The position numbers were made by a program, and so were the translations under genes. Shown here piece after piece: positions 27,466 to 44,175 of a DNA stretch of 64,000 nucleotides. The stretch comes from Ornithinibacillus sp. 4-3 (GTDB lineage Bacteria; Bacillota; Bacilli; Bacillales; Amphibacillaceae): NCBI RefSeq assembly GCF_040958695.1, contig NZ_CP162599.1:2700001-2764000 (forward strand), given 5' to 3'. Position 1 is the first letter of the stretch. The number at the start of each line of letters is the position of its first letter. Below the pieces are notes generated by a model, which did no database searches, was not told the origin of the DNA, and saw only the letters and a list, made by a program, of their open reading frames with translations.

Positions 27466-27846
27466 ATTGTTATGGTTGATTAAAAGGCGAGCTTTTAAAT
27501 TCAATACGCAAATTTTTCTTCTATTGAAGAAGTTTTTAGACGATAATTTATTCTTTTTTATATAAAATTTAACTTTTTCGTGATATTACCTAGCATTTGC
27601 TTATTATTCAGAATATAATAGAAGATAAGAGTCATGTATAAACATCTCACCATGTGATAAACACATGACCATTCCAAATTATCTATATAAAATAACTGCA
27701 ATAATCTGTTCGCAGTTCCATTCCAGAACTATCCCAACAGATAAAGGCCAGTTCAAGTCGACTTGTTGCTTTTTTCCGTAGAAAGTGGGAGTTGATTTGA
27801 AGTGGCCACTTTTTGATATATCATGTTTTTAGAAGGGAGTGAGAAT
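27466..27846 (+). promoter_or_regulatory. long leader region of the glutarate operon
   Basis: No ORF is supported in these 381 bases. A TATAAT at about 27615 has a poor -35, so a 5' untranslated region near 225 nt is likely. It holds a nested hairpin (GTCATGT...ACATGAC around ACAT...ATGT, about 27632-27668), the inverted repeat AGTTC-N7-GAACT (near 27715-27735) and a terminator-like AAAGTGG...CCACTTTTT hairpin (27781-27813) just before the CoA-transferase start. It does not fit a riboswitch class I recognise. Confidence 0.4.
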
Positions 27847-29001
27847 GTGGCTGGCGCATTAAATAATATTCGTATTCTCGACCTATCTCGAGTTCTTGCT
27901 GGCCCCTACTGTACAATGGTTTTAGGCGACTTAGGTGCAGAAGTGATTAAAGTGGAAGCACCTGGTGGCAGTGATGAAACTAGAAAATGGGGACCGCCTT
28001 TCCAAGAGGGTGTAAGCGCATACTACTTATGTGCAAACCGAAATAAGAAAAGTATCACAGCAAACTTGAAGTCTGAAGAAGGAATAAAGATAATTAAAGA
28101 GCTTGTTAAAAATAGCGATGTCATTATTAATAACTTTAAAACAGGCACGATGGAAAAATTTGGTCTCGACTATGAGACGTTATCGGAAATCAATCCAAGT
28201 ATCGTGTATGCATCCATTACAGGGTTTGGCGAAAATGGACCATATAAAGATATTCCAGGTTATGATTTTATTATCCAAGCAATGAGCGGATTGATGAGCA
28301 TTACGGGTGATGAAGAATCTGGGCCTCAAAAGCTTGGTGTTGCGATTGTTGATGTACTTACAGGACTTTATACAACCATTGGTATTCAAGCAGCTTTACT
28401 CGAAAGAACAGTATCTGGTAAAGGGCAGAAAATTGATATTTCCCTTTATGATACAGCAGTAAGCTCCCTTGTTAATATTGGTAGTAACTACTTAATGTCT
28501 GGTAAAATCCCTCAAGCACTTGGGAATTCCCATGCTAATATTGTTCCATATCAAACGTTTAAAACACTTGATGGAGAAATGGTGATTGCTGTTGGGAATG
28601 ATCATCAATACCGTGCACTATGTAATGTATTAGGAAAACCAGAGCTTGGAAATGATGAGAGATTTTTAACAAATCCTGATCGTGTAAAACATCGCGATAT
28701 CATTGTACCGCTACTACAAGAAGTATTTTTAACAGAAACATCTAATTATTGGCAAGAAAAATGTCATGAGAATAATATTCCTTGTGGGGCTATTCAAAAC
28801 ATTGAACAAGTTACACAAGATCCGCAGCTCCAAGCTCGAAACATGTTTATTGAGCATGAACATCCAGTTGCGGGAACCATTAAAATGATTAATAGTCCAT
28901 TGAAATTATCTCGTACACCAGTAAATGTGAGACAACATCCTCCAGAGCCTGGTGAGCATAATGATGAAATTATTAATCCATTGAATTTATCAAAAGAATA
29001 A
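27847..29001 (+). CDS. family III CoA-transferase (CaiB/BaiF), probable glutarate CoA-transferase
   Basis: A 384-residue family III CoA-transferase. N-terminal RILDLSRVLAGPYCTMVLGDLGAEVIKVE and the catalytic Asp of this family in PGYDFIIQAMSGLMSITG are present. These enzymes move CoA between dicarboxylic or other acids. The next gene encodes a glutaryl-CoA-dehydrogenase-like protein, so glutarate with succinyl-CoA as donor is the likely substrate, like mammalian SUGCT (inference). The start is GTG 27847, five bases after GAAGGGAGTG; the frame runs eight codons further upstream. First gene of a rightward operon. Confidence 0.88.
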   Translation: MAGALNNIRILDLSRVLAGPYCTMVLGDLGAEVIKVEAPGGSDETRKWGPPFQEGVSAYYLCANRNKKSITANLKSEEGIKIIKELVKNSDVIINNFKTGTMEKFGLDYETLSEINPSIVYASITGFGENGPYKDIPGYDFIIQAMSGLMSITGDEESGPQKLGVAIVDVLTGLYTTIGIQAALLERTVSGKGQKIDISLYDTAVSSLVNIGSNYLMSGKIPQALGNSHANIVPYQTFKTLDGEMVIAVGNDHQYRALCNVLGKPELGNDERFLTNPDRVKHRDIIVPLLQEVFLTETSNYWQEKCHENNIPCGAIQNIEQVTQDPQLQARNMFIEHEHPVAGTIKMINSPLKLSRTPVNVRQHPPEPGEHNDEIINPLNLSKE

Positions 29002-29025
29002 TAAAACCATTTAGGAGATGAAAAT

Positions 29026-30213
29026 ATGAATTTTGATTTCACAGAAGAACAGGATATGTTACGTAGTACAGTAAGAAGCTTTGTTGATAAAGAGATTATT
29101 CCAAATATTTCTGAATGGGATCGTCAAGGAAAATTTGATCCAGCGATCTTTAACAAATTATCTGAATTAGGTTTAATGGGTGTTTGTATTCCTGAAGAAT
29201 ATGGCGGAAGTGGAATGGATTATAATTCTTTAGCTATTGTTTGTGAAGAGCTAGAGCGTGGAGATACAACTTTCCGTACAGCTGTTTCTGTACATATCGG
29301 TTTAAACAGTATGACTCTATTACAATGGGCAAATGACGAGCAAAAGAAAAAATATCTAGCACCACAAGCTGTAGGTGAGCAAATTGGTGCATTTGGATTA
29401 ACAGAACCTGGCGCTGGTTCCGATGTTGCTGCAATGCAATCAACTGCAACCAAAGATGGCGATCATTACATCTTAAATGGTTCAAAAACATGGATCTCTT
29501 TATGTGATGTTGCAGATAACTTCATCGTATTCGCTTATACAGATAAGTCGAAGAAACACCATGGAATTTCTGCATTTATCGTAGAAAGAACAATGGAAGG
29601 ATTCTCTTCACAAGCAATCAAAGGAAAAATGGGTATTCGTGCTGGTAACACAGGAGAAATTTTCTTCGATAATATCCGTGTGCCAAAAGAAAACCTTCTT
29701 GGTGAAGAAGGTGAAGGATTTAAAATTGCAATGGCTGCATTAGATAATGGACGTTTCACTGTTGCCGCTGGAGCAGTTGGACAAATTATGGCTTGTCTAG
29801 AAGCTAGTGTGAGCTACTGCCATGAGCGTGAAACATTCGGACAGCCGATTGGTAAGCATCAATTAGTTCAACAAATGATTGCTAACATGGAAGCAGGACT
29901 TCAAATGAGCCGCTTACTTGTTTATCGTGCGGGTGAATTAAAGAACCAAGGAAAGCGTAATACTCGCGAAACTTCATTAGCTAAATGGCAAGCATGTGAT
30001 TTTGCTAATAAGGCTGCAGACGATGCAGTACAAGTTCATGGTGCATACGGATTCTCTGATGAGTACCCAGTAGAAAGATTCCTACGTAACTCTAAAGCAC
30101 CAGTTATTTATGAAGGAACAAGAGAAATTCATACCATTTTACAAGCAGAATATGCTTTAGGTTATCGTGAAGATAAACCTTTAAACAAAATGCTACCTGC
30201 TTGGAATAATTAA
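29026..30213 (+). CDS. acyl-CoA dehydrogenase, probable glutaryl-CoA dehydrogenase
   Basis: A 395-residue flavoprotein. FAD/substrate signature GLTEPGAGSDV (124-134), catalytic Glu363 in VIYEGTREIHT, and the C-terminal QAEYALGYREDKPL resembles bacterial glutaryl-CoA dehydrogenases. Arg84 in TTFRTAVSV lines up with Arg94 of human GCDH (YRSAMSV), which binds the gamma-carboxylate; ordinary acyl-CoA dehydrogenases lack it. Predicted reaction: glutaryl-CoA to crotonyl-CoA plus CO2 with an ETF acceptor. A non-decarboxylating variant cannot be excluded. RBS TTAGGAGATG; 24 bp after the CoA-transferase. Confidence 0.88.
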   Translation: MNFDFTEEQDMLRSTVRSFVDKEIIPNISEWDRQGKFDPAIFNKLSELGLMGVCIPEEYGGSGMDYNSLAIVCEELERGDTTFRTAVSVHIGLNSMTLLQWANDEQKKKYLAPQAVGEQIGAFGLTEPGAGSDVAAMQSTATKDGDHYILNGSKTWISLCDVADNFIVFAYTDKSKKHHGISAFIVERTMEGFSSQAIKGKMGIRAGNTGEIFFDNIRVPKENLLGEEGEGFKIAMAALDNGRFTVAAGAVGQIMACLEASVSYCHERETFGQPIGKHQLVQQMIANMEAGLQMSRLLVYRAGELKNQGKRNTRETSLAKWQACDFANKAADDAVQVHGAYGFSDEYPVERFLRNSKAPVIYEGTREIHTILQAEYALGYREDKPLNKMLPAWNN

Positions 30214-30228
30214 TTAAAAAACTTGATC

Positions 30229-30268
30229 AGATATCGTACCTCAACAATAGAGCGTACGATATCTTTTC
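30229..30268 (+). terminator. intercistronic terminator
   Basis: AGATATCGTAC and GTACGATATCT form an 11-bp perfect stem with TTTTCT after it, between the acyl-CoA dehydrogenase and the semialdehyde dehydrogenase. It would reduce or stop read-through. Confidence 0.75.
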
Positions 30269-30300
30269 TATCACTAATATCATAGTTGGAGGGATAATAA

Positions 30301-31743
30301 ATGTTCGAAAAACAAACAAAAAGTATTTTTATTAATGGAGAATGGCAAGAACTAGGCCGTACAGAAACTGTTTATAATCCTGCTACAATGGAAGCTATTA
30401 CAGAGATTGCTTATGGTGGAGCTGAAGAAGCAGAAGCTGCAATTGCTGCTGCAGATGAAGCTTTTAAATCATGGAGTAGTCTAACTGGACGTGAGCGTTC
30501 AAAAGTTTTATATAAAGCATATGAACTTATGGTAGAAGATGCAGATCGTCTTGCTACTATTTTAACTTCAGAACAAGGAAAGCCTTTCGCAGAAGCAAAA
30601 GGAGAAATTCTAAGTGGCGCAAGTTTCCTACTCTGGTATGCAGAGGAAGCTAGCCGTGCATACGGAGAAATTATCCCTGCCCCAGCAAAAGGAAAGCGTC
30701 TTCTAGTTATCCCACAAGCAATTGGGGTAGTTGGGGCGATTACACCTTGGAATTTCCCTAGCTCAATGATTACTCGTAAGCTTGGTCCAGCATTAGCTGC
30801 TGGTTGTACAGTTGTACTAAAACCTGCTGGTGTAACACCACTTTCTGCAATTGAATTAGTGAAAGTTTTTGAACGTGCTGGTTTACCAAAAGGTGTTATT
30901 AATTTAGTAACTGGAAATTCACAAGAAATTGGGAATGCAATGTTAACGAATAAGAAGGTTCGTTTAATCACATTTACTGGCTCTACTGAAGTTGGAAAGC
31001 ACTTAATGCGTGAAGGTGCTAACCATGTGAAGAAGCTTGCATTAGAACTTGGTGGACATGCACCAATCCTAGTATTTGAAGATGCTGATATTGAAAAATC
31101 AACTACATTAGCATTAGGTAGTAAATTCCGTAATGCTGGTCAAACTTGTATTTGTGCAAACCGTTTATACGTTCATGAATCCATTGCTGAGAAATTCACT
31201 ACTCGTTTGAAAGAAAAAGCAGAAGCAATGAAAATTGGTAATGGTTTAGAAGAAGGTACTGAAATTGGTCCACTAATTAATGAACAAGCAATTGAAAAAG
31301 TAGAAGAACATCTAAATGACGCATTAACAAAAGGAGCTGCCGTTATTACTGGTGGTTCGAAATGGGATGGAGATTTAGAGGGTAATTTCTATAAACCTAC
31401 TATTATTTCTAATGTTAAAGATGACATGATTATCATGAGTGAAGAAACATTTGGACCAATTATTCCAATCCAAACATTCAATGATGAAGATGTTGCGATT
31501 GCTAAAGCAAATGACTCCGATTATGGTTTAGCTGCTTATGTATTCACTGAAAATACAAGCCGTGCTGTTCGTGTATCTGAAAAATTAGATTATGGTATTG
31601 TTGGTGTAAACGATGTATTCCCTGCTACACCAGAAGCTCCATTTGGAGGAATTAAACAATCAGGTATCGGTAAAGAAGGCGGTCATTACGGACTTGAAGA
31701 ATTCATGGAGCAGAAGTTTATTTCTTTAGGTATTGATGAATAA
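30301..31743 (+). CDS. succinate/glutarate-semialdehyde dehydrogenase (GabD-like)
   Basis: A 480-residue aldehyde dehydrogenase of the succinate-semialdehyde class. Catalytic Cys283 lies in NAGQTCICANR and general base Glu249 in LALELGGHAP; GSTEVG (227-232) marks the cofactor site and ITPWNFPSS the substrate loop. Homologues oxidise succinate and glutarate semialdehyde with NAD(P). Its place after the CoA-transferase and glutaryl-CoA dehydrogenase-like genes points to glutarate semialdehyde as substrate (inference). GTTGGAGGGATAATA precedes the ATG. The next gene is convergent. Confidence 0.9.
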   Translation: MFEKQTKSIFINGEWQELGRTETVYNPATMEAITEIAYGGAEEAEAAIAAADEAFKSWSSLTGRERSKVLYKAYELMVEDADRLATILTSEQGKPFAEAKGEILSGASFLLWYAEEASRAYGEIIPAPAKGKRLLVIPQAIGVVGAITPWNFPSSMITRKLGPALAAGCTVVLKPAGVTPLSAIELVKVFERAGLPKGVINLVTGNSQEIGNAMLTNKKVRLITFTGSTEVGKHLMREGANHVKKLALELGGHAPILVFEDADIEKSTTLALGSKFRNAGQTCICANRLYVHESIAEKFTTRLKEKAEAMKIGNGLEEGTEIGPLINEQAIEKVEEHLNDALTKGAAVITGGSKWDGDLEGNFYKPTIISNVKDDMIIMSEETFGPIIPIQTFNDEDVAIAKANDSDYGLAAYVFTENTSRAVRVSEKLDYGIVGVNDVFPATPEAPFGGIKQSGIGKEGGHYGLEEFMEQKFISLGIDE

Positions 31744-31752
31744 GAATTACAA

Positions 31753-31796
31753 TAAAAATAGGTGTAAGGGCTTTTAATACCCCTTCACCTATTTTT
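31753..31796. terminator. bidirectional terminator
   Basis: AAAAATAGGTGTAAGGG and CCCTTCACCTATTTTT pair with one bulge; T-runs lie on both outer sides. It overlaps the stop codon of the convergent DUF3870 gene. Confidence 0.8.
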
Positions 31797-32106
31797 CCTT
31801 TTTTGTATACAATACATATTGCTTATATAAGTCCTTTAATGCTGATTCTAGCGCACTTCCAGCTTTCCCTAGATAATGTCCCTTTACTTGCTCGACAGGA
31901 AATTCGATACCGTCTTGCAGACTATATCCTCGTAATAAATGTTGAACAAATTCGCGACCATGCAATGTTGCTAATGTACAGCTTGCTGTTACAATAACCC
32001 CATATTTCTTATCAATTTCAGCTGTAATTGTTAATGTTTCATAGATGCTTTTTGCAGCCATTCCAGATGGAAGACGTGCATGCCCTGCAATAAAAACTGT
32101 GTTCAT
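31789..32106 (-). CDS. DUF3870 domain protein
   Basis: A 105-residue soluble protein: MNTVFIAGHARLPSGMAAKSIYETLTI, then KYGVIVTASCTLATLHGREFVQHLLRG and GHYLGKAGSALESALKDLYKQY. These match DUF3870, a family of unknown function often found near CoA-ester and amino-acid catabolism genes. The start is ATG 32106 after GGTAGGAATTAGT; the open frame continues upstream without similarity. It stands between the glutarate operon and iclR, so a helper role in this pathway is possible. Confidence 0.75.
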   Translation of the reverse strand: MNTVFIAGHARLPSGMAAKSIYETLTITAEIDKKYGVIVTASCTLATLHGREFVQHLLRGYSLQDGIEFPVEQVKGHYLGKAGSALESALKDLYKQYVLYTKKEK

Positions 32107-32278
32107 ACTAATTCCTACCTTATCATTTATTTCACATGGATGATTATACAAGCTTATAGAACGATAGTCTATCAAGAAAATTAAGATCAGGCTAACCAAG
32201 ATACTTTAAATAAGCATCCTCGTTATAAAAAGTTGATTAAAAAAGTTTCTTTAATAATAAGCTTTTTTATTCTTGATC

Positions 32279-33046
32279 TTATGCGTTTTCACGATATCCT
32301 AATTCTTTAGAAATGCGTTGTGCTGTCTCTTCTGTTTTTAATTTTATCATCTGAAGACGTTCTCCTTCAAAATTACTGGAAAGCCCGCTTACCGCTAATG
32401 CAGCAACCACTTCTTCTTGATAATTAAAAATAGGATAAGATACACCTGTTGTATCTTCATCTTGCTCAGCAACACTAAAACCAAAACCATTTACTCGAAT
32501 TTCATCAAGCTCACGTCTAAGTTTTTCCTTATCTATTAGTTTATTACCATCAATAGAATACATTGCTGCATCCTCTAGAATTTCTTCTTGCTTTTCTTTT
32601 GGTAAATGAGCTAATAAAAGTTTTGGTCCAGAGCCTAAATGCAATGGTAAACTCTTTCCGATTCTAGTAAATAGACGAAGCGCACGTTTGCTTTCTACTT
32701 TCTCAATATATGTAGCTTTTTTCTGATTCACAATAACAAGGTGAACAACTTCATTTATTTCATTTCCTAGTTCTTCCATATACGGAAGAGCAATACTTCT
32801 TAATTCCATTTGTTCGGAAGCAAGCTGGCCAAGTATTAATAATTTTAAGCCTAATCGATAACGGCTGTCATGTATTGAATGCTTGGTTTTGGATAAAAGC
32901 TCACCTTCCTCTAATGTTGTTAAAATACGGTAGGCGGTAGATTTAGGTATGCCTGTTTTTTCAGAAACCTCATGTAAAGTAAGTTCTCCCGCTTCTGCAA
33001 TAAAAAGGTCTAATATTTGTAATGCCTTGCTTACACTTTGATTCAT
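32279..33046 (-). CDS. IclR-family transcriptional regulator
   Basis: A 255-residue regulator. The N-terminal winged helix runs SVSKALQILDLFIAEAGELTLHEVSEKTGIPKSTAYRILTTLEEG (about 4-50); the C-terminal IclR effector domain includes LGSGPKLLLAHLP and VAEQDEDTTGVSYPIFN. Members bind small organic acids. It lies between the rightward glutarate genes and the leftward lysine genes, so it probably controls both halves (inference). The start is ATG 33046 after TAGGAGC. A TTCC-ACG-GGAA palindrome at 33072-33082 upstream may be its own operator. Confidence 0.88.
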   Translation of the reverse strand: MNQSVSKALQILDLFIAEAGELTLHEVSEKTGIPKSTAYRILTTLEEGELLSKTKHSIHDSRYRLGLKLLILGQLASEQMELRSIALPYMEELGNEINEVVHLVIVNQKKATYIEKVESKRALRLFTRIGKSLPLHLGSGPKLLLAHLPKEKQEEILEDAAMYSIDGNKLIDKEKLRRELDEIRVNGFGFSVAEQDEDTTGVSYPIFNYQEEVVAALAVSGLSSNFEGERLQMIKLKTEETAQRISKELGYRENA

Positions 33047-33071
33047 ATAAATAGCTCCTATCATGATTTGG

Positions 33072-33082
33072 TTCCACGGGAA
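33072..33082 (-). promoter_or_regulatory. candidate IclR autoregulatory site
   Basis: TTCC-ACG-GGAA, an 11-bp palindrome 26 bp upstream of the iclR-type ATG. The 27.7-kb leader contains a loosely similar GTTCCA...GAAC. Short and not unique, so support is weak. Confidence 0.35.
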
Positions 33083-33117
33083 AATTTAACTTCTATCGCA
33101 GAAAGCTCAACTAGTTT

Positions 33118-33151
33118 GTCTATTAGCAGGAAATTAATCCCACTAATAGAC
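33118..33151. terminator. hairpin after lysDH
   Basis: GTCTATTAG and CTAATAGAC form a 9-bp perfect stem between lysDH and the IclR gene. The T-run lies on the plus-strand side, where no gene needs it, so it may act on the minus strand without a U-tract. Confidence 0.5.
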
Positions 33152-33163
33152 TTTTTATAATTC

Positions 33164-34306
33164 TTATACTTCTTCGATATTTACTCCACGCTTAGCAATT
33201 TCCTCAATGTACTCTTTACCAGGTACTACTTGTTCTGGAGGATATACTCCACGTTTTGTAATTGTTCCATTTCCAATCATTTGTGCAGCAATAGAAATTG
33301 TGTTTGCTGTTGCTCTAGCCATTGCTGTCACATTGTTTTCACGGTCTTTATATGTAGACATTTCGTATTCATAAGTTGTTTCTACACCGTCTTTATCACC
33401 AGAAACAAGCACTTTTAATAGTACTACATCATCTTTATCACCAAGCTCTACAATTGGCTCAAGTACTTTTAATAGTACTTCACGTGGATTGATTTTTTCT
33501 CCTTTTACTTCTACTTCATAGTCAGAACGAGTTAAGTTTAAGTCAACAAGTAACTGAAACTTCTCTGCATGTCCTTTATAGCGAATTGTCTTATATTCTA
33601 ATGTTTCTAATTCTGGGTAAGAAATAGATAATGTTGAAGTTCCACCAGATGTGTGGAATGCTTCTAAAGGTCCAAATTTGGCGAAATGAATTTCTTCAAT
33701 TTCTGATAAAGAAGGAATTTCTTGCCCAACTCCATTACGCACAATAAAAGAAGGATCTGTATAGTGATCGAATACACCTTCCATAGAGAATACATGATTA
33801 TATTCAATTGGTGGATCTGGACGAAGTGGAATACCACCTACATAAAGTTTAATGGATTTAACTTCATCTAATTTACTAGCACCGTATCCAGATAAGATGT
33901 TAATCATCCCTGGAGCTACTCCTAAATCAGGAATTAAAGTAACATTTGCTGCTTCAGCTTGTTCTTTAAGTGCTAATACTTTATCTGTCATATGACCAAT
34001 ATGACCACCTAAATCAACGGAATGAACGCCTACTTCAATTGCTGTTTTAGCAACAATTTCGTTAAATGAATAGAATAAAGCATTCACAATAACATCAAAT
34101 TGCTTCATATAATTAGCTAATTCTTCTGTATTACTTGCATCTACTTGATAAGCTGTTAATTTAGAAGAATTTAATTGATCGACAACACTTTGTGCTCTAG
34201 ATAATTCAATATCAGCTAAACCAACTGCTGTTACACCTTCACTTGATACTAAATCACGTGCTGTTTCTTTACCCATTAAACCTGAACCAAGTACTCCTAC
34301 TTTCAT
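33164..34306 (-). CDS. lysDH: L-lysine 6-dehydrogenase (saccharopine dehydrogenase fold)
   Basis: A 380-residue enzyme very similar along its length to the NAD-dependent L-lysine 6-dehydrogenase of Geobacillus stearothermophilus. It shows the Rossmann motif GSGLMG (7-12), [52 protein letters not shown] and [13 protein letters not shown]. Reaction: lysine to 2-aminoadipate 6-semialdehyde plus ammonia, the product cyclising to piperideine-6-carboxylate. The start is ATG 34306, eight bases after GGGGAG; GTG three codons earlier is less likely. The next leftward gene encodes IclR; upstream is an aldehyde dehydrogenase able to use the product. Confidence 0.88.
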
Positions 34307-34350
34307 TACATTCACTCCCCAAATTATTATCTTTGTTTATTAGTATATTT

Positions 34351-34395
34351 ATTTATGAATCGTGCTCCCCCTTAGCTAAGAAAAGAGAGCACGAT
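34351..34395 (-). terminator. terminator between ALDH and lysDH
   Basis: AATCGTGCTC and GAGCACGATT form a 10-bp perfect stem. It follows the aldehyde dehydrogenase stop codon, so lysDH probably has its own promoter. Confidence 0.75.
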
Positions 34396-34418
34396 TTACA
34401 AAACAATAGCATTAAAAA

Positions 34419-35915
34419 TTAGTTATTATCAATTTGTGCACGCTGTAATTTACCACTGTAGTCTACATAAATTGCTTTCCACTCTGTAAATACATCTAGT
34501 GCTTGAACTCCGGAATCACGGTGTCCATTACCAGTACCTTTTGTACCACCAAATGGTAAATGAATCTCAGCTCCTGTAGTTCCCGCATTCACATAAACAA
34601 TACCTGTATCTAAATCACGCTGTGCAGCAAATACACGGTTTACATCTTTTGTAAAGATGGAGCTAGATAAACCATAAGTTACACTATTATTTACTTCAAT
34701 TGCTTCTTCAAAGCTCTTCACTGGAATTAGTGATAAAACTGGTCCAAATACTTCTTCTAAAGCAATACGCATATCTGGTTTAACGTCTGTAAACAGAGTT
34801 GGCTCGAAGTAGTTTCCGTTTGCATATTCGCCTTCATTCATAATACTTCCTCCAGCAACAAGCTTCGCGCCTTCGTTTTTAGCGATATCGATGTAGCTAT
34901 TGATTTTCTCTAAGCTACCTTTATTAATAACTGGTCCAACCTTAACAGATGAATCTAAACCATTACCAATTGTTAAAGACTTCATTTCTTCAAGTAGGCG
35001 TTTTTCTAATTCTTCCTTCACATCTTCATGTACGATTACTCGGCTACAAGCTGTACATCTTTGACCACTTGTACCAAATGCACTCCATAAAATACCTTCA
35101 ACAGCTAGGTTTAAATCTGCATCATCCATAACGATTACAGCATTCTTACCGCCCATTTCTAGGGATACTTTCTTCAATTGCTGACCACATTTTCCTGCAA
35201 TATCACGTCCTACATCATTAGAACCTGTGAAAGAAATAACACGGATTCCATCATGGTGTACCATTGCGTCTCCTACTTCAGAACCAGAACCATACACAAC
35301 GTTAATAACACCTTTTGGTAGTCCAGCACTTTCGAAAATTTTCACAAGCTCATGTGCCATAATTGGAGTTTCTGTTGCCGGCTTCCACACTACTGCATTT
35401 CCTGAAACAATTGCTGGGAAAGATTTCCATGTTGCAATTGCAATCGGGAAGTTCCATGGTGTGATAATTCCCACTACACCAAGTGGAGAGCGTACACTCA
35501 TCGCAAACTTATTTCTTAGCTCACTAGGTGTTGTTTGTCCAAATAGGCGACGCCCTTCTCCAGCCATATAGTACGCCATATCAATTCCCTCTTGAACTTC
35601 TCCACGAGCTTCCTCGATTACCTTACCGTTTTCTAAAGTAAGTAGTTGTGCAATTTCTTCCTTACGCTCTTTCATTAGGTCTCCAACACGATAAAGTACT
35701 TCTGCACGCTCAGGAGCCGGTACTAATGCCCATTCTTTTTGTGCAGCTTTTGCAGCTTTTACAGCGTCATCTACACTTTTAGCACTTGATAATGGTACTT
35801 CAACAACTGCTTCGCCTGTTGCTGGGTTGATAACATCTGTGTGCTTATCTCCTTCAACCCATTCACCATTAATATAATTTTTTAGTTTTGAAACATCTAC
35901 TTTTACTTCTGCCAT
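34419..35915 (-). CDS. aldehyde dehydrogenase, probable 2-aminoadipate-semialdehyde dehydrogenase
   Basis: A 498-residue NAD(P)-linked aldehyde dehydrogenase with Glu253 in SLEMGGKN and catalytic Cys287 in GQRCTACSR. The C-terminal GGTKGTGNGHRDSGVQALDVF segment differs from the GabD-like enzyme at 30.3 kb and is closer to semialdehyde dehydrogenases of lysine and uronate catabolism. With lysDH next to it, oxidation of 2-aminoadipate 6-semialdehyde to 2-aminoadipate is the best guess (inference). The start is ATG 35915 after GGAGGTAATTTGC. The frame runs 17 codons upstream without homology. Confidence 0.85.
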   Translation of the reverse strand: MAEVKVDVSKLKNYINGEWVEGDKHTDVINPATGEAVVEVPLSSAKSVDDAVKAAKAAQKEWALVPAPERAEVLYRVGDLMKERKEEIAQLLTLENGKVIEEARGEVQEGIDMAYYMAGEGRRLFGQTTPSELRNKFAMSVRSPLGVVGIITPWNFPIAIATWKSFPAIVSGNAVVWKPATETPIMAHELVKIFESAGLPKGVINVVYGSGSEVGDAMVHHDGIRVISFTGSNDVGRDIAGKCGQQLKKVSLEMGGKNAVIVMDDADLNLAVEGILWSAFGTSGQRCTACSRVIVHEDVKEELEKRLLEEMKSLTIGNGLDSSVKVGPVINKGSLEKINSYIDIAKNEGAKLVAGGSIMNEGEYANGNYFEPTLFTDVKPDMRIALEEVFGPVLSLIPVKSFEEAIEVNNSVTYGLSSSIFTKDVNRVFAAQRDLDTGIVYVNAGTTGAEIHLPFGGTKGTGNGHRDSGVQALDVFTEWKAIYVDYSGKLQRAQIDNN

Positions 35916-35996
35916 GCAAATTACCTCCATTTTTTTATAAAAATATATAACATTATCTGCCTTCATTCTTATTTAGAAGTCGTTAGGCTATCTTAC

Positions 35997-37673
35997 TTAC
36001 TTTTTATTAGCTCGTAGTTGCGCAATAGTTGCACCTACAGAGATTTGTTCTTTATCTATAATAATTTCTATTACAGATGTTTTTTTACTTGCCAAAGCAT
36101 CCTCTAATGCTTTTTCAAATGCTTCAGCAGTATCTACAGAATATCCGTTTGCTCCAACGCTTTTCGCAAAATCAGCAAACTTCACTTTGCCAAGATCAGT
36201 TGCAATAACCTTTTCTGGGTAATGCATTTCTTGGTGCATTCGAATGGTACCATAGCTGTTGTTATTAAACACTAGGCTAATAATCGGAATATCATAACGA
36301 ACTGCTGTTTCAATCTCTTGAGCTGTCATCATGAATCCACCATCTCCGGATAAAGATACAACTACTTTGTCTGGAAAGGCAAGCTTTGCCCCAACTGCTG
36401 CTGGCATACCATAGCCCATTGCACCAGAGGTTGGGCCAACATACGTATGCTTTTCACGGAAAGAATAGAAGCTGTGTAACCAGCCTGCAAAATTTCCTGC
36501 ATCATTAGTAATTAAAGCATCATTAGGTAATTTCTTATCTAATACCGCAATAATCTTCTTATTAATATAATCAGTATCTGTAACGCTTAATTCACTAACT
36601 GCTTCGTATACAGCACGTTTTTCCTTAGCCCATTCTTCCCAGCTTGATGTTAATTCCATACTTTCTAATGCTTTTAGAGCTTCTTTCACATCAGCTACAA
36701 TTCCTATCTCAGGAACATAAATCTTACCAATCGTATCAAAATCAATATCGATATGAATAAGCTTCTTATCATTTGTAATGATACTATAATCCTGAGTCGT
36801 ATTCTCAGAAAACCTTGTACCAAGTCCTATAATCAAATCTGCTTCATCCACTGTTTTACGAATATCCTTCGCCAAACCTAAACCAAGATGCCCTACATAT
36901 AAAGGATGTTGATGTGGAAAGCTATCATGTCTTCTAAATGCTGCTACTACAGGAATGGAATATTTTTCAGCAAACTGTATTAGCTCCTGCTCTGCTTGGG
37001 AGCTCTTCACTCCTCCACCTGCGATAATCAGTGGGTGTTTTGCTGCTGATAAAATTTCTTGAACTGCTTTTACCTCATCACTTGCTGGGGCTGGTGTCGG
37101 TTTCTTTAATGTTGGTCCAAAATGCATTTCCGCTTCTACTGGCAATACATCTTCTGGCAAAGAAATAACAACAGGTCCAGGTCTACCTGTTTGGGCAATA
37201 CGAATGGCCTTCTGCACAATTTCTGGCATGCGTTCTGGGTCACGAACTTCCACTGCCCATTTTGCAATAGGCTTGAAGAATTGATCTAGCTCCACTTCCT
37301 GAAATGCTTCTCTCCCCTTTACCTTGCTATGTACTTGCCCAAGAAATACTAACATCGGAGTAGAATCCTGATAAGCGGTATGTACACCGATCGTTAAATT
37401 TCCTGCTCCTACTCCACGAGTCGCCATTACCACGCCTGGTTTTAAAGCTGATTTCGCATAGCCTTCTGCCATAAAGGATGCACCACCTTCATGACGTGCT
37501 GATATAACTTCCATAGCAGGTTCATCATAAAGTGCATCTAATACTGGTAAATAACTTTCTCCTGGAACACAGAATACCTTTGTAATATCTTCGCGTTTCA
37601 GACATTCAACAAGCGCCGCTGCCGCAGTCATTGTTTTTGTTTCTTTTGCTGGAATGTTTGCTACCACTATCAT
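35997..37673 (-). CDS. thiamine-diphosphate-dependent decarboxylase/synthase (acetolactate synthase-like)
   Basis: A 558-residue ThDP enzyme with the three usual domains. Catalytic Glu62 lies in SARHEGGASFMAEGYAK, and the ThDP/Mg motif begins at GDGG (443-446) and ends NNNSYG (470-475). It is similar to ilvB-type proteins, but there is no small subunit and no ilv gene near. It is the first gene of the leftward lysine group, 81 bp before the ALDH. The hypothesis is 2-oxoadipate decarboxylation to glutarate semialdehyde; acetolactate synthase-like or other 2-oxoacid activity remains possible. The start is ATG 37673, six bases after GAGGAG. Confidence 0.82.
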   Translation of the reverse strand: MIVVANIPAKETKTMTAAAALVECLKREDITKVFCVPGESYLPVLDALYDEPAMEVISARHEGGASFMAEGYAKSALKPGVVMATRGVGAGNLTIGVHTAYQDSTPMLVFLGQVHSKVKGREAFQEVELDQFFKPIAKWAVEVRDPERMPEIVQKAIRIAQTGRPGPVVISLPEDVLPVEAEMHFGPTLKKPTPAPASDEVKAVQEILSAAKHPLIIAGGGVKSSQAEQELIQFAEKYSIPVVAAFRRHDSFPHQHPLYVGHLGLGLAKDIRKTVDEADLIIGLGTRFSENTTQDYSIITNDKKLIHIDIDFDTIGKIYVPEIGIVADVKEALKALESMELTSSWEEWAKEKRAVYEAVSELSVTDTDYINKKIIAVLDKKLPNDALITNDAGNFAGWLHSFYSFREKHTYVGPTSGAMGYGMPAAVGAKLAFPDKVVVSLSGDGGFMMTAQEIETAVRYDIPIISLVFNNNSYGTIRMHQEMHYPEKVIATDLGKVKFADFAKSVGANGYSVDTAEAFEKALEDALASKKTSVIEIIIDKEQISVGATIAQLRANKK

Positions 37674-37739
37674 CAACAACTCCTCTTCATATGTTTGAAT
37701 ACAAAATCTATTTTGCTAGATAGACACTTTCATCACTGA

Positions 37740-38921
37740 TTAAAGTGTATCTAATGCTTTCCATACATTCTGCACTTGTAATGCCGCTCCAATTGACAGA
37801 CTATCTTCATCAATATCAAATTGACTTGTATGCCCGCCATGGATAATTCCTTTTTCTTCATTACGGCACCCTAATTGGAAAAACGCAGATGGAACTGCAG
37901 CTGCAAAATATGCAAAATCTTCTACACCCATATTAGGTAAGTCCATCCACTGGACATTTTCCTTACCAAGAAGCTCGTCACCACTTGCTTTAACAATATC
38001 AACCATTTTATTATCATTAATTAAAGAAACATATCCTGGATGATGTTCAAAATCATAATCCCCACCAAGACTGCGGGTGGTAAAAGATAAAACTTCTTTA
38101 ACTCTTTCAATAACTAACTCTCTTACTTCAGGGTCTAATGTACGTACTGTTCCATTTATTACTACTTCATCTGCAATTACATTACTCTGTGTTCCTCCAG
38201 AAATAGTACCTAATGAAATAACAGCGGCCTTTCTTGGATCAACGTTACGGCTTACAATCGTTTGCATAGCTGTAATCACATGTGCAGCAATGACAATAGC
38301 GTCACGTCCATTATGTGGGTATGCCCCATGTCCCTTTGCTCCTTTTATAGTAAGCTTGATTGAATCAGAAGACGCATTCATTTGATCATAAATAACACCA
38401 ATTTTTCCAGTAGGTATTCCAGTTGACATATGTAACCCAAAAGAAGCATCTACCTTGGGATCTTCTAATACTCCTTCAGCAATCATTGGTTCTGCTCCCC
38501 CAACAGTCTCTTCTGCTGGTTGGAACATTAACTTCACATTTCCTTGTAGTTCATCACGATGTACTTGCAAAAGCTTAGCAGCTCCTAATAACACTGTCAT
38601 ATGCGCATCATGACCACAAGCATGCATTTTTCCTGGAATAGTAGATTTATAATCTACATCATTTTGTTCATCAATTGGCAAAGCATCCATATCTGCTCGA
38701 AGTGCAATTGTTTTTCCTGGCTTCACACCTTTAATAAAACCAACTACACCTGTATTGGCTATTTTTTTACACGGAATTCCCATCTCTGTTAAATACGTTA
38801 TTATTTTTTCCTGGGTACGAAATTCTTCCATTCCAAACTCTGGGTGACGGTGAAAATCTCTACGCACATCCACTAACCAAGGCTGGATTCGTTTCGCTTC
38901 CGATAATATTTCGTGTGGCAT
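37740..38921 (-). CDS. M20 family amidohydrolase (hippurate hydrolase-like)
   Basis: A 393-residue binuclear-metal hydrolase. M20D motifs are HRHPEFGMEEF, MHACGHDAHMTVLL, the catalytic Glu pair in QPAEETVGGAEP, GGTQSNVIADEV and MGVEDFAYF. Family members cleave N-acyl amino acids such as hippurate or N-acetyl-amino acids. It is preceded by a sigma-A promoter and palindromes shared with the binding-protein gene at 40.7 kb, so the two genes are probably co-regulated. ATG 38921 is used; a GTG five codons upstream lies in the ribosome binding site. Confidence 0.88.
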   Translation of the reverse strand: MPHEILSEAKRIQPWLVDVRRDFHRHPEFGMEEFRTQEKIITYLTEMGIPCKKIANTGVVGFIKGVKPGKTIALRADMDALPIDEQNDVDYKSTIPGKMHACGHDAHMTVLLGAAKLLQVHRDELQGNVKLMFQPAEETVGGAEPMIAEGVLEDPKVDASFGLHMSTGIPTGKIGVIYDQMNASSDSIKLTIKGAKGHGAYPHNGRDAIVIAAHVITAMQTIVSRNVDPRKAAVISLGTISGGTQSNVIADEVVINGTVRTLDPEVRELVIERVKEVLSFTTRSLGGDYDFEHHPGYVSLINDNKMVDIVKASGDELLGKENVQWMDLPNMGVEDFAYFAAAVPSAFFQLGCRNEEKGIIHGGHTSQFDIDEDSLSIGAALQVQNVWKALDTL

Positions 38922-38945
38922 CTCTATTTCCAGCACCTTTCAATT

Positions 38946-39012
38946 ATTTCATTTAATGAAATGTCATTTCAACTACCATAACTAGTATAATCTGTAATTT
39001 TATTATTTTCAA
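38946..39012 (-). promoter_or_regulatory. promoter/operator module of the M20 gene
   Basis: Minus strand TTGAAA (39007-39012), a 17-bp spacer and TATACT (38984-38989). Downstream is ATTTCAT-TTA-ATGAAAT (38946-38962), overlapped by GAAATG-T-CATTTC (38958-38970). The same promoter and a 13-of-17 match to the first palindrome occur before the binding-protein gene. Confidence 0.75.
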
Positions 39013-39096: not shown

Positions 39097-40701
39097 TTAT
39101 TCTGTTTTAGTAATATTCCATAAAATAGGTCCTGAAATAAATTGTAATCCATCAATATTTTCTCGTAGTGACACAATATTGGTAGTATTTCCAGCTTTTA
39201 ATGCTGGCATCTCCTCATAATAAACTCGGTGAAATTCCTCTGAGAAGGATTGTGCTTCTTCAAGAGATGATGCTTGTAAAATTTGTTCAGATAAACGCTG
39301 TAATTCTTCACTTTCCGGCCAACCAATATACTCAGGGTTTAAGAATAGTTGCTGAATCGGCATCGGGCGAAATGCAAATCCAGAGTAGAATGCATCAAAT
39401 GCAGATGGATCTTCTGCCATTTCGATCGCAGTTGGCCAATCTCTTACATCCATTGTTACATTCATTCCAACTGCTTCTAATTGTGATTGCATAATCACAG
39501 CTGTATTATAATGTGTTTCATAATCACGATTTGTTAACAGCACTACTTCTTCACCATCATATCCAGCTTCATCTAATAACTGCTCTGCTAATTCAGGATC
39601 ATATGTGTGATAAATATCACTTCCAGCATCCGTATACCAACCTGCCTGTTCCTCTTTAACTAATGCATGATCCTTAATATAGTATTCTTCATTTACAAAA
39701 GATGCTGTTAGTATATCTTCCATATTAATAGCAGCATTTGCAGCTTGCCTTATTTTTTGGTTAGAAAAGACGCCTTCTTTATTATTTAACATGATGATTA
39801 ACATAGAACTTGCAAACACTTCATTCCTTACATCTCCAGCAGCTTCTAATGTAGCTGCATCATCATGTGGTATATCAATTGCAATATCATATTCACCAGT
39901 TTGTATTCCTGCAAGTCGAGTGGAAGAATCAGTTATAAAATGGAAATACATATCATCCATAGGCGCTTTCTTTTCACCCGCAAGTCCGTCAGCCGGTTCA
40001 GAACGTGATTGATAATCAGCAAACTTCTTCAGATGAATATATTGATCCTGCCGCCATTCTTCTAATGCATATGGTCCTGTACCAACGATTTCTTCTACTC
40101 CATCATCACTTACATTTTCAATAACATCTTTAGGCATAATCGCAGCAAATTGTGTCATATCTGCCAAAACGTACATATCTAATGTAGAAGGGTTTTCAAT
40201 TTCTGCGACAACAGTATAATCATCCTCTGCTGTAAAAACGGTTTGACTGTGGTAAGTTTTTGCTTGAGCTGACTGTCCTTGCCATCTTTCTAATGAGGCG
40301 ATAACATCTTCTGCTGTCATGTCTTCACCATTGTGAAACTTGATTCCTTCGCGAAGATAAAATGTAATTGTTTTTCCATCCTCACTTATTTCATAAGATT
40401 CAGCTAACATTGGCTCTACTTCTAAGCTCGAATTTAAAGTAACAAGTGGCTCAAATATATGTTGGGAAATATCTCTTGTGGCAGTTGCAGTTGAAAGGTG
40501 GATATCTAATGTTGGTGGTTGTGCACTAAATGCAATATTTAATTCCCCACCTTGAGTTACTTCGTTCTCTTCTTCATTTTCCTGGTCCCTGTCATTGTCT
40601 TCATCGTTATTGGTGTTTGATGAATCACTACATGCGATTAAAATACCTCCTAATAACAGGATAATCAGGATGCTCATTATTCGTTTTACATGCATATTCA
40701 T
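39097..40701 (-). CDS. peptide/nickel-type ABC transporter substrate-binding lipoprotein
   Basis: A 534-residue solute-binding protein of family 5. The lipobox is ILIAC (Cys24), followed by an acidic linker. GGELNIAFSAQPPTLDIHLSTA, LAESYEISEDGKTITFYLREGIKFHNGEDMTAEDVIASLERW and VGTGPYALEEW are family landmarks. It would capture oligopeptides or another large solute outside the membrane. No permease or ATPase genes adjoin it, so it must use a transporter encoded elsewhere. The shared promoter/operator with an M20 amidase suggests uptake of acylated amino acids or peptides (inference). Confidence 0.88.
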   Translation of the reverse strand: MNMHVKRIMSILIILLLGGILIACSDSSNTNNDEDNDRDQENEEENEVTQGGELNIAFSAQPPTLDIHLSTATATRDISQHIFEPLVTLNSSLEVEPMLAESYEISEDGKTITFYLREGIKFHNGEDMTAEDVIASLERWQGQSAQAKTYHSQTVFTAEDDYTVVAEIENPSTLDMYVLADMTQFAAIMPKDVIENVSDDGVEEIVGTGPYALEEWRQDQYIHLKKFADYQSRSEPADGLAGEKKAPMDDMYFHFITDSSTRLAGIQTGEYDIAIDIPHDDAATLEAAGDVRNEVFASSMLIIMLNNKEGVFSNQKIRQAANAAINMEDILTASFVNEEYYIKDHALVKEEQAGWYTDAGSDIYHTYDPELAEQLLDEAGYDGEEVVLLTNRDYETHYNTAVIMQSQLEAVGMNVTMDVRDWPTAIEMAEDPSAFDAFYSGFAFRPMPIQQLFLNPEYIGWPESEELQRLSEQILQASSLEEAQSFSEEFHRVYYEEMPALKAGNTTNIVSLRENIDGLQFISGPILWNITKTE

Positions 40702-40807: not shown

Positions 40808-40868
40808 GTTTCATTTATCGAAATAAAATTCCAATTTTTAGTATAATTTATAATTTTACCCGTTTCAA
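40808..40868 (-). promoter_or_regulatory. promoter/operator module of the binding-protein gene
   Basis: Minus strand TTGAAA (40863-40868), 17-bp spacer, TATACT (40840-40845), then GTTTCATTTATCGAAAT (40808-40824), a partly symmetrical copy of the palindrome at 38946-38962. Bases upstream of the -35 also match the first module. Confidence 0.7.
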
Positions 40869-42122: not shown

Positions 42123-42256
42123 GTATATTTCCTCCATTTGTTCATTGTTCTTACATCTTAAATTATAGAGTTATACTTCCTAATCAGCAATTAGAATGTT
42201 TTTTATGTATACTAAAACTATTAAACTAATTACAATCATATAAAGAGGTGAATTCA

Positions 42257-43528: not shown

Positions 43529-44175
43529 TGAGACAACCATGGATTGATATTTCTCAAGCCTTAACAAATGATATGGCTCATTGGCCAGGAGACACACCAT
43601 TTACCCGTGAATTAACATTTTCCAAAGCTGAAACAGGATCTGTTAATATCGGACAAATCACTACAAGCTTACATACGGGAACACATGTAGACGCACCATT
43701 CCATTTTGATAATGATGGAAAAACAATTGAACAGCTTGATATTAATGATTTTATTGGTAAAGCAAGGGTTTTTGATATTTGTGAAGCAGAAGAAATTAAT
43801 GTAGAGGTTTTAAAACAATTTACATGGGAAAATGTAACCCGAGCATTATTTCGTACCTCTTTCATTGATAATCTAAAGCAATTTCCAGAAACAATTCCAA
43901 CGATTGATCCTGCAATAGCACCCTTCCTAGCAAGTAAAGGTGTCAAACTATTTGGGATTGATTTACCATCTGTTGATGCATTGGATAGCAAAACATTAGA
44001 AACACATCACGCGTTTGCTGAACATGGAATCCATATTTTAGAAAATATCGTGCTTTCTGATATACAACCTGGAGTATATGAATTGATTGCTCTACCACTA
44101 GCAATACATGGAGCTGATGGAAGTCCTGTCCGTGCTGTGATTCGTAAAATCAAGGAGGAAAAGCAACATGGATAA
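43528..44175 (+). CDS. kynB: kynurenine formamidase (arylformamidase)
   Basis: A 215-residue cyclase-family metal hydrolase. [16 protein letters not shown], the metal motif [12 protein letters not shown] and [12 protein letters not shown] identify KynB. It hydrolyses N-formyl-kynurenine to kynurenine and formate. The start is GTG, whose G is the last base of the kynU TAG stop, and the gene overlaps kynA by 8 bp; both overlaps suggest translational coupling. Confidence 0.95.

Follow-up and report, generated by a model that had tools for sequence, protein, structure and literature searches.

The 64,000-nt stretch of Ornithinibacillus sp. 4-3 DNA analyzed here (the window) contains a cluster of genes for a family III CoA-transferase, a glutaryl-CoA dehydrogenase (GCDH)-like protein, a GabD-like ALDH, an IclR-family regulator, a predicted lysine 6-dehydrogenase (LysDH), a second ALDH and a ThDP-dependent enzyme (Table 1). 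An earlier, sequence-only reading had named these genes around the IclR gene, and each is an intact ORF at its given place. The CoA-transferase gene lies where it had been put, but it starts at 27823, with the earlier 27847 being an alternative GTG start. The DUF3870 and M20 genes are cluster members absent from that reading. The intergenic gaps from M20 down to DUF3870 are 60, 30, 103, 99, and 79 bp, and M20 is probably the head of the same operon as the ThDP, ALDH, and LysDH genes in this genome, occupying the slot held by an aminotransferase in most relatives. The window itself holds no aminotransferase gene, as had been stated.

Table 1. Features of the cluster, with positions in the window
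Feature	Position	Strand	Support
Family III CoA-transferase, predicted succinyl-CoA:glutarate CoA-transferase	27823..29001	+	PF02515, 445 bits
Glutaryl-CoA dehydrogenase, predicted decarboxylating type	29026..30213	+	Arg84, Tyr362, Glu363 conserved
GabD-like ALDH, predicted glutarate semialdehyde dehydrogenase	30301..31743	+	TIGR01780 (SSADH), 636 bits (cut-off 646.35)
DUF3870 protein, co-conserved with cluster	31789..32199	-	PF12986, 102.5 bits
IclR-family regulator, predicted operon repressor	32279..33064	-	PF01614 and PF09339
Predicted lysine 6-dehydrogenase (saccharopine dehydrogenase fold)	33164..34315	-	PF16653 and PF03435
ALDH, predicted piperideine-6-carboxylate / 2-aminoadipate semialdehyde dehydrogenase	34419..35966	-	PF00171
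ThDP-dependent enzyme, predicted 2-oxoadipate decarboxylase	35997..37679	-	PRK08199 subfamily model NF006052, 746.5 bits (cut-off 539)
M20 amidohydrolase, probable first operon gene	37740..38936	-	PF01546
Putative IclR operator TGAAATGACATTTCATTAAATGAAA	38947..38971	-	exact at all 18 fixed motif positions
Oligopeptide-type substrate-binding protein (SBP family 5), probable regulon member	39097..40701	-	PF00496, 249 bits
Second putative IclR operator, 2 mismatches	40809..40833	-	motif match

The predicted LysDH combines the NADP-binding and C-terminal domains of saccharopine dehydrogenase in a short protein of 383 amino acids, which is the domain content looked for in a lysine 6-dehydrogenase. 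Its nearest solved relative is 3abi (140.6 bits), and close homologues are named by their sources either lysine 6-dehydrogenase or saccharopine dehydrogenase family. The LysDH of Bacillus thermoamylovorans oxidizes lysine at C6 in engineered E. coli (PMC9437556, in excerpt). The ALDH next to LysDH scores below the P6CDH model NF050084 (435.2 bits, cut-off 730) and higher, although also under the cut-off, with the alpha-ketoglutarate semialdehyde dehydrogenase model (547, cut-off 770). It adjoins LysDH in all ten of the LysDH loci read among the 20 genomes that have LysDH and lack the ThDP enzyme.

None of the curated NCBIfam models names ALDH1, the CoA-transferase, GCDH, or GabD above its own cut-off. 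The GabD-like ALDH falls just short of its SSADH model, and the best model for the CoA-transferase is succinate--glutarate CoA-transferase NF052585 (444 bits, cut-off 750). The GCDH-like protein passes neither NF045552 (383.7, cut-off 470), which we take to represent the non-decarboxylating Desulfococcus type, nor the acryloyl-CoA reductase model, which scores higher (400.6, cut-off 640). Its Arg84, presumably the side chain that binds the distal carboxylate, lines up with an Arg in 3mpi, a glutaryl-CoA dehydrogenase, and with an Ile in acyl-CoA dehydrogenase 4l1f. Among the orthologues Arg84 is found in 28/28, and Tyr362 and Glu363 (the latter presumably the catalytic Glu) are found in all 27 that have a residue there. 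The pairing of GabD with a CoA-transferase suggests that free glutarate would be formed from its semialdehyde; a 2-oxoadipate dehydrogenase complex would yield glutaryl-CoA directly.

The ThDP enzyme passes the PRK08199 subfamily model and falls below the AHAS model TIGR00118 (442.7 bits, cut-off 538). At two AHAS positions, the Arg that serves the second 2-oxo acid and the Trp of the substrate pocket, which we take to be R276 and W464 of E. coli AHAS II, all 47 Bacillaceae-type sequences, that of the window included, have other residues. Position 293 is Asn in the window enzyme, Val (37) or Ile (5) in the remaining 42 sequences of that group, and Ala in four Geomicrobium-type sequences; position 482 is His in all 47. 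These replacements argue against acetolactate synthase as the identity of the enzyme. ThDP-dependent 2-oxo acid decarboxylases possess a conserved Glu for the ThDP pyrimidine and a GDG-X25-30-N(C)N motif (PMC10418658, in excerpt). In alignment A1, Glu64, GDG 445-447, and N473 are found in 39/39 sequences and N472 in at least 90%, and the motif was counted as present; the spacer from GDG to N472 is 24, one below the quoted range, while N473 lies 27 residues beyond Asp446, the same distance as from Asp435 to Asp462 in MaKGD. The predicted structure (pLDDT 92) has carboligases as its closest neighbours: the ThDP-dependent 'HKA synthase' (BbmA), AHAS, and glyoxylate carboligase. The Arg/His signature of the enzyme also occurs in Proteobacterial members with other gene neighbours, so these residues do not single out 2-oxoadipate, and no PRK08199 member with a known substrate was found in the literature searched. 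It is from gene context that the enzyme is considered a likely 2-oxoadipate decarboxylase.

A 25-bp palindromic site (palindrome TGAAAT-N3-ATTTCA) precedes the operon, the peptide-binding protein gene, and a peptide transporter operon. The motif, with 18 fixed positions, was derived from sequence upstream of the aminotransferase in relatives, and the window contains two matches at no more than two mismatches versus 0.07 expected. One is separated by 10 bp from the GTG listed as the start of M20, on its upstream side, and the other lies 107 bp upstream of the SBP family 5 gene start. Presence of the IclR gene tracks the site, which is probably the IclR operator. With an M20 amidohydrolase apparently heading the operon and copies of the putative operator before peptide-uptake genes, what the pathway takes in physiologically may be N-acyl-lysine or a lysine-containing peptide instead of free lysine.

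The cluster arrangement recurs across Bacillaceae, and its parts co-occur at the whole-genome level far beyond chance. The hosts are salt-loving Bacillus relatives. A survey of 156 genomes of the family (73 with and 83 without the ThDP enzyme; raw genome counts, with shared ancestry ignored) served as a possible refutation of the sequence-only reading on co-conservation, and the reading withstood it: LysDH, CoA-transferase, GCDH, and the aminotransferase occur in 73, 73, 72, and 68 of the 73 ThDP-containing genomes versus 20, 4, 7, and 4 of the 83 others. GabD orthologues (at least 65% identity) are present in 50/73 versus 3/83. LysDH lies within 5 kb of the ThDP gene in 63 of the 73, and the aminotransferase lies within 500 bp of it on the same strand in all 68 genomes having both, which agrees with the transamination step predicted earlier. 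Within one genus with 25 LysDH-containing genomes, GCDH is present in 13/13 with the ThDP enzyme versus 2/12 without it, so the occurrence of the ThDP enzyme follows the glutaryl-CoA module rather than LysDH by itself. DUF3870 adjoins the ThDP/LysDH/IclR or the GCDH/GabD genes in many loci. Several observations count against the decarboxylase route: 23 of the 73 genomes lack a cluster-type GabD, seven ThDP-less genomes retain GCDH, four (G019, G032, G076, and G137) keep the aminotransferase while missing the ThDP enzyme, G032 with the remaining cluster, and no close aminotransferase orthologue was found in the genome of Ornithinibacillus sp. 4-3 itself.

HglS (PF07063, DUF1338/HGLS) was found in 0/156 family genomes, this one included, and in 2/14 control genomes by the same search. 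A Kordiimonadales MAG carries LysDH, ThDP, and P6CDH genes together, a 14-kb span of Azospirillum argentinense includes LysDH together with a ThDP-P6CDH pair, and Rhizobium sullae has HglS-P6CDH-AT-D2HGDH with LysDH; the ALDHs of all three pass the P6CDH model (803, 818, and 803.5, respectively; cut-off 730). It is as if ThDP and HglS genes had been swapped at the 2-oxoadipate step beside LysDH and P6CDH in Alphaproteobacteria. Counting against the decarboxylase route, none of ten alphaproteobacterial loci picked via LysDH has the ThDP gene in the stretch read, and six have neither it nor HglS.

Gene order and co-occurrence strongly back a lysine catabolic route, and it is quite probable that the ThDP enzyme acts in it as a non-oxidative 2-oxoadipate decarboxylase, its substrate above all being deduced from context. 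First, LysDH would convert lysine to 2-aminoadipate semialdehyde/piperideine-6-carboxylate, which the adjacent ALDH would oxidize to 2-aminoadipate. Next, an aminotransferase (beside ThDP in most relatives, with none identified in this genome) would give 2-oxoadipate. The ThDP enzyme would then form an adduct with 2-oxoadipate, lose CO2, and release glutarate semialdehyde, which the GabD-like ALDH would oxidize to glutarate. Finally, the CoA-transferase would produce glutaryl-CoA, and GCDH would convert it to crotonyl-CoA and CO2. The IclR repressor would control the LysDH operon via the palindrome, its regulon here also including the M20 and peptide-uptake genes. The lysine-to-crotonyl-CoA reading proposed from the sequence alone thus gains support from co-occurrence, aminotransferase adjacency, HglS absence, ThDP/HglS alternation, and the GCDH residues.

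Other readings place the ThDP enzyme differently. Lysine could be transaminated at C2, with the ThDP enzyme converting 2-oxo-6-aminocaproate to 5-aminopentanal, ALDH1 giving 5-aminovalerate, and a transamination giving glutarate semialdehyde for the same lower pathway. AT, ThDP, and ALDH1 genes are grouped without LysDH in loci L012, L017, L018, and L027 (in a different order in L021), aminotransferases that appear by eye to be class III lie near the GCDH module in L007, L092, and L095, and an artificial pathway of such design is known (PMC7900509, in excerpt). This route is nonetheless quite improbable: LysDH would be useless in it, yet is present in every ThDP-containing genome and mostly close by, the Kordiimonadales grouping suits the 2-aminoadipate route, and a 5-aminovalerate aminotransferase is not among the recurring members of the conserved operon. 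It is also quite improbable that the general 2-oxoglutarate dehydrogenase complex turns 2-oxoadipate into glutaryl-CoA and leaves the ThDP enzyme another task, such as acyloin-forming carboligation. The carboligase neighbours and the four genomes with the aminotransferase alone would fit, but the GabD-CoA-transferase pair and AT-ThDP adjacency would go unexplained, and 2-oxoadipate is described as a weak, inactivating substrate of the human enzyme (PMC12655727, in excerpt).

That the enzyme is an acetolactate synthase, in the cluster by chance, can hardly be credited; the general fold and the labels of some database entries point that way, but the cluster is conserved, the AHAS Arg and Trp are replaced, and both are retained in L082, a distinct AHAS-like paralogue that this genome encodes. 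An input of pipecolate, D-lysine, or a lysine peptide, not free L-lysine, overlaps with the preferred 2-oxoadipate decarboxylation, differing in the inlet alone. In its favour, several loci carry genes resembling FAD oxidase and ornithine-cyclodeaminase/P2C-reductase next to AT-ThDP-ALDH1, and M20 and peptide-uptake genes stand behind putative operators here; such genes, however, look like extra inlets, and LysDH is present in every ThDP-containing genome. This reading is unlikely.

2-Oxoadipate is the branch point of lysine degradation. The exits found described are a multienzyme complex yielding glutaryl-CoA and an iron oxygenase yielding 2-hydroxyglutarate; no natural ThDP-type 2-oxoadipate decarboxylase was found in the literature searched, and the earlier reading likewise knew of no bacterial pathway described with this step. 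We tentatively propose, with somewhat less than even confidence, that the PRK08199 clade provides a natural, O2-independent 2-oxoadipate decarboxylase taking the place of HglS in lysine catabolism in Bacillota and Pseudomonadota, two phyla at the least, so that lysine degradation in bacteria would have a new branch point, and that a related member may also feed glutaryl-CoA, hence biotin, via 2-oxoadipate and glutarate in Alphaproteobacteria. If true, there would be a third way past 2-oxoadipate, by a simple ThDP decarboxylase with no oxygen required, Bacillaceae without HglS would gain a lysine pathway, and the acetolactate synthase labels would be corrected. Its product, glutarate semialdehyde, is a C5 monomer precursor that engineers now reach via a borrowed general decarboxylase, and a possibly selective enzyme would be on offer.

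The proposed route shares features with several known systems, described here from excerpts of the cited sources. The human 2-oxoadipate dehydrogenase complex (DHTKD1) likewise uses ThDP chemistry on 2-oxoadipate and ends at glutaryl-CoA, but is oxidative and multienzyme and requires no GabD or CoA-transferase (PMC9367764, PMC12655727). In the HglS route, by which Pseudomonas putida breaks down D-lysine and plants break down lysine, 2-oxoadipate is also an intermediate, but HglS is an Fe(II)/O2 enzyme whose product is D-2-hydroxyglutarate (PMC7286885). Agrobacterium biotin synthesis, which is supported by lysine, 2-oxoadipate, and glutarate alike, needs CaiB, a CoA-transferase of the same family III, acting on glutarate; the enzyme acting on 2-oxoadipate is not named in the excerpt (PMC7645780). 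The cyanobacterial 2-oxoglutarate decarboxylases ScKGD and MaKGD, from organisms without the dehydrogenase complex, similarly make a dicarboxylate semialdehyde that is then oxidized by a semialdehyde dehydrogenase, but their substrate is one carbon shorter and their role is in the TCA cycle; MaKGD was active on 2-oxoglutarate alone among six acids tried, a set without 2-oxoadipate (PMC10418658). Engineered KivD with GabD performs the same two reactions from 2-oxoadipate to glutarate, although that route is artificial, employs a general 2-oxo acid decarboxylase and does not come from a natural lysine operon (review, PMC12861294).

The gene cluster is best read as a conserved and coherent route from lysine to crotonyl-CoA in which a ThDP-dependent decarboxylase acts at the 2-oxoadipate step, and we regard this reading as highly probable. 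Along the proposed route, lysine would pass through 2-aminoadipate, 2-oxoadipate, glutarate semialdehyde, glutarate and glutaryl-CoA. The cluster is made up of two convergent units, and all of the genes named in the sequence-only reading are present as open reading frames with assigned domains, with DUF3870 and M20 as additions. The intergenic gaps of the minus-strand unit, from M20 to DUF3870, are 60, 30, 103, 99 and 79 bp. DUF3870 is co-conserved with the lysine cluster across genera. A tryptophan-to-anthranilate set (kynureninase, formamidase and tryptophan 2,3-dioxygenase, named by eye; 42248-45010, plus strand) adjoins the cluster, and kynureninase orthologues lie close to the ThDP gene in 11/46 Bacillaceae-type loci.

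Open reading frames of the lysine cluster and their positions in the window
Product	Position	Strand	Basis
Family III CoA-transferase	27823-29001	+	domain assignment
Acyl-CoA dehydrogenase, glutaryl-CoA dehydrogenase (GCDH)-like	29026-30213	+	domain assignment and residue alignment
GabD-like ALDH	30301-31743	+	domain assignment
DUF3870	31789-32199	-	domain assignment
IclR regulator	32279-33064	-	domain assignment
Lysine 6-dehydrogenase (LysDH), saccharopine-dehydrogenase fold	33164-34315	-	domain assignment
ALDH (LysDH side)	34419-35966	-	domain assignment
ThDP enzyme	35997-37679	-	PRK08199 subfamily
M20 amidohydrolase	37740-38936	-	domain assignment; first in reading order of its unit

The ThDP enzyme scores 746.5 bits (cut-off 539) against the function-free PRK08199 subfamily model, the one model passed among the best 25 of 56 matching families. 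The top models for the CoA-transferase and the GabD-like ALDH are succinate--glutarate CoA-transferase (444 bits) and succinate semialdehyde dehydrogenase (636 bits), both under cut-off, while the ALDH on the LysDH side reaches 435 bits, under the cut-off of 730, with the model for piperideine-6-carboxylate dehydrogenase (P6CDH). The GCDH-like protein is above cut-off for no model. An Arg of this protein aligns with the Arg of the glutaryl-CoA dehydrogenase 3mpi, a position occupied by Ile in the acyl-CoA dehydrogenase 4l1f; the Arg is kept in 28/28 orthologues, and the catalytic Glu in 27/27 of those with a residue there. A Tyr precedes the catalytic Glu, where 3mpi has Val, and this Tyr is a mark of decarboxylating enzymes.

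The best Foldseek matches to the AlphaFold model of the ThDP enzyme (pLDDT 92) are a ThDP-dependent 'HKA synthase' (BbmA), AHAS, 2-hydroxyacyl-CoA lyase and glyoxylate carboligase, at 24-33% identity. Glu64 and the GDG at 445-447 are invariant in 39 sequences. In E. coli AHAS II, the substrate Arg and Trp are R276 and W464; other residues stand at these two positions in 47/47 Bacillaceae-type sequences, and both residues are kept in the AHAS-like paralogue of the same genome. On the strength of these replacements and of the gene context, we reject acetolactate synthase as the function of the ThDP enzyme. Arg88, Arg289, Arg480 and His482 are likewise invariant in the 39 sequences, which makes them candidate dicarboxylate-binding residues. 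The residues alone cannot name the substrate, because proteobacterial members with other neighbours have all four in common and the AHAS-like paralogue also has Arg289 and Arg480. Some other members of the subfamily adjoin aminotransferase and ALDH genes, or a GabD-like ALDH, neighbours that would fit a general role as 2-oxo acid decarboxylase. A further ThDP-family paralogue in the genome (3263598-3265247, minus strand; 32% identity) has two stop codons within the match.

The survey of co-conservation proposed in the sequence-only reading bears out a linked gene set. A threshold of E<=1e-120 retrieved the ThDP enzyme in 76 of 156 genomes of the family; three (G026, G113 and G148; 45-48% identity) were set aside as paralogues and tallied with the genomes lacking it, giving 73 with and 83 without, and the two of these three loci that were read (L099, L100) have gene neighbours unlike those of the cluster. 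Matches at 43-44% to the aminotransferase (AT) found beside the ThDP gene in relatives (G036, G040), and CoA-transferase matches at or below 50% identity, were left out of the counts. Genomes with the ThDP gene contain LysDH in 73/73 cases versus 20/83 without it, CoA-transferase in 73/73 versus 4/83, GCDH in 72/73 versus 7/83, AT in 68/73 versus 4/83 and specific GabD in 50/73 versus 3/83 (Fisher p < 1e-18, in p-values that ignore shared ancestry). The AT lies within 500 bp of the ThDP gene on the same strand in 68/68, LysDH within 5 kb in 63/73 and GCDH within 20 kb in 58/72. Within a single genus (g14), the 25 genomes with LysDH have GCDH in 13/13 with the ThDP gene versus 2/12 without, with identical counts for AT and CoA-transferase; the ThDP gene is therefore linked to the glutaryl-CoA half of the route. 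The ALDH is supported as the partner of LysDH because the two are adjacent even in genomes lacking the ThDP gene (10/10 LysDH loci read, from 20 such genomes).

The exceptions are four genomes with AT and no ThDP orthologue (G019, G032, G076 and G137), where genome searches for a second close ThDP enzyme gave only paralogues of 30-37%. At L091, in G032, the whole remaining cluster is present in the same order, except that the ThDP gene is missing from its place after AT and before ALDH; the ThDP paralogues elsewhere in this genome reach only 36-37%. Genes resembling class III aminotransferases lie near the GCDH module in G076 and G137, and we infer that they might be another source of glutarate semialdehyde. 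G069 is the sole genome with the ThDP gene and no GCDH match, and has space for GCDH between GabD and CoA-transferase.

The neighbourhoods of relatives were read in one genome per species, from the best 80 of 93 confirmed loci, among which 46 are Bacillaceae-type (L001-L045 and L049; ThDP identity 51-71%). Clustering of open reading frames places a class I AT in at least 38 of the 46, and in 37 it immediately precedes the ThDP gene; in L021, the ALDH sits between the two. The other partners are ALDH (at least 36), LysDH (at least 32), GCDH and IclR (at least 27 each) and CoA-transferase (at least 26), counts that are lower bounds because no more than 10 kb of flank was read and some contigs stop sooner. 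The nearest group to this AT is LL-diaminopimelate aminotransferase, and it fills the single gap named in the sequence-only reading. That reading rightly placed no aminotransferase in the window, and the search of the whole genome also gave no close orthologue (best 38% with a 110-residue query; none with the full-length protein at E<=1e-105). G005, from the same genus, has the AT in its place. A second locus of the genome (L105, 3408000-3426000) contains M20 genes, an SBP5-like gene and an ornithine-cyclodeaminase-like gene, and also encodes an aminotransferase 38% like the AT of relatives, a possible source of the missing transamination.

In six loci (L012, L017, L018, L026, L027 and L094; Oceanobacillus, Heyndrickxia and Virgibacillus among the hosts), AT-ThDP-ALDH or AT-ALDH is flanked by an FAD amino-acid oxidase-like gene, mostly together with ornithine-cyclodeaminase/P2C-reductase-like and sodium:solute symporter-like genes, perhaps an inlet for D-lysine or pipecolate. 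L029, titled Roseburia sp. 1XD42-34, contains a Virgibacillus-type cluster (ThDP identity 62%), and its assembly is perhaps misnamed or mixed.

A common element upstream of AT in relatives, TGAAAT-N3-ATTTCA-N3-A-N-TGAAA, is a putative IclR operator. Allowing up to 4 mismatches over its 18 fixed positions, it occurs in 23/24 loci having both IclR and AT versus 3/14 with AT and no IclR gene in the locus, a count that is not independent because the motif was read from the same loci. Two of these three are 4-mismatch sites; the other (L049) has 1 mismatch, and its contig ends before the expected place of IclR. The window, left out of the motif derivation, contains two matches versus 0.07 expected by chance: an exact one immediately ahead of the M20 gene (38947-38971) and one with 2 mismatches ahead of a peptide-binding protein gene (40809-40833). 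At a tolerance of 2 mismatches, the whole genome yields 7 sites versus 1 for a reversed control. An oligopeptide ABC transporter operon begins ~250 bp after the second-best site (179216, 1 mismatch), and four further 2-mismatch sites, which may be chance, are inside or before genes of no evident link, one within a further SBP5-like gene. Judging from the genes behind these sites, lysine may enter the pathway in this genome as a peptide or N-acyl-lysine. Upstream of the CoA-transferase operon the element is not conserved, with only 3-4-mismatch matches in a few loci.

The known alternatives act on the same intermediate. A search for HglS, the Fe(II)/O2 enzyme that yields D-2-hydroxyglutarate, elsewhere in these genomes gave PF07063 in 0/156, and in 2/14 control genomes. 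2-Oxoadipate could be a substrate of the general 2-oxoglutarate dehydrogenase, but the product would be glutaryl-CoA directly, and GabD and the CoA-transferase would have no role. In Agrobacterium, biotin is reportedly formed from lysine, 2-oxoadipate or glutarate, and a glutarate CoA-transferase is needed (PMC7645780); an enzyme converting 2-oxoadipate to glutarate would explain this result, with which a direct glutaryl-CoA route is also compatible.

The alphaproteobacterial loci look as if the ThDP enzyme and HglS had been swapped beside LysDH and P6CDH. One Kordiimonadales MAG has, in order, an Lrp-type regulator (opposite strand), a LysDH-type gene, a ThDP gene (41% to that of the window) and an ALDH that clears the P6CDH model (803, cut-off 730); of 8 GCDH matches in this genome, 4 were given as loci and one of these (L136) has the Arg and the Tyr-Glu motif. 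Azospirillum argentinense has Lrp/LysDH and a ThDP-P6CDH pair (P6CDH 818, cut-off 730) inside 14 kb with unrelated genes between; the pair is also present in A. oryzae and in A. brasilense, where LysDH is 147 kb off on the same plasmid. A different ThDP enzyme is convergent with LysDH in Azospirillum (L141, 4778-6532, minus strand, 28% to that of the window; L154, 13159-14913, minus strand). Rhizobium sullae has LysDH and P6CDH of the same types, here in the company of HglS (751.5, cut-off 550), D-2-hydroxyglutarate dehydrogenase (1462, cut-off 1350) and an aminotransferase. The stretches read around 13 LysDH loci contain HglS in 4, ThDP in 3, both in 0 and neither in 6, in a small, mixed sample where the 3 ThDP loci were fetched through ThDP (one, Pseudochrobactrum, with no P6CDH in the stretch) and the other 10 through LysDH (HglS 4, ThDP 0, neither 6).

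The titles and abstract openings of mostly open-access literature, bioRxiv excluded, gave no natural 2-oxoadipate decarboxylase or such pathway. The 'ketoadipate decarboxylase' of PMC10164729 is unrelated, referring to beta-ketoadipate, as is PMC10102578, a list of breath metabolites. The lysine route combines known enzyme kinds in a manner that we could not find described in the literature searched. An artificial KivD-GabD version of the conversion of 2-oxoadipate to glutarate is described in PMC12861294, and the nearest natural relative in function is the cyanobacterial 2-oxoglutarate decarboxylase (PMC10418658).
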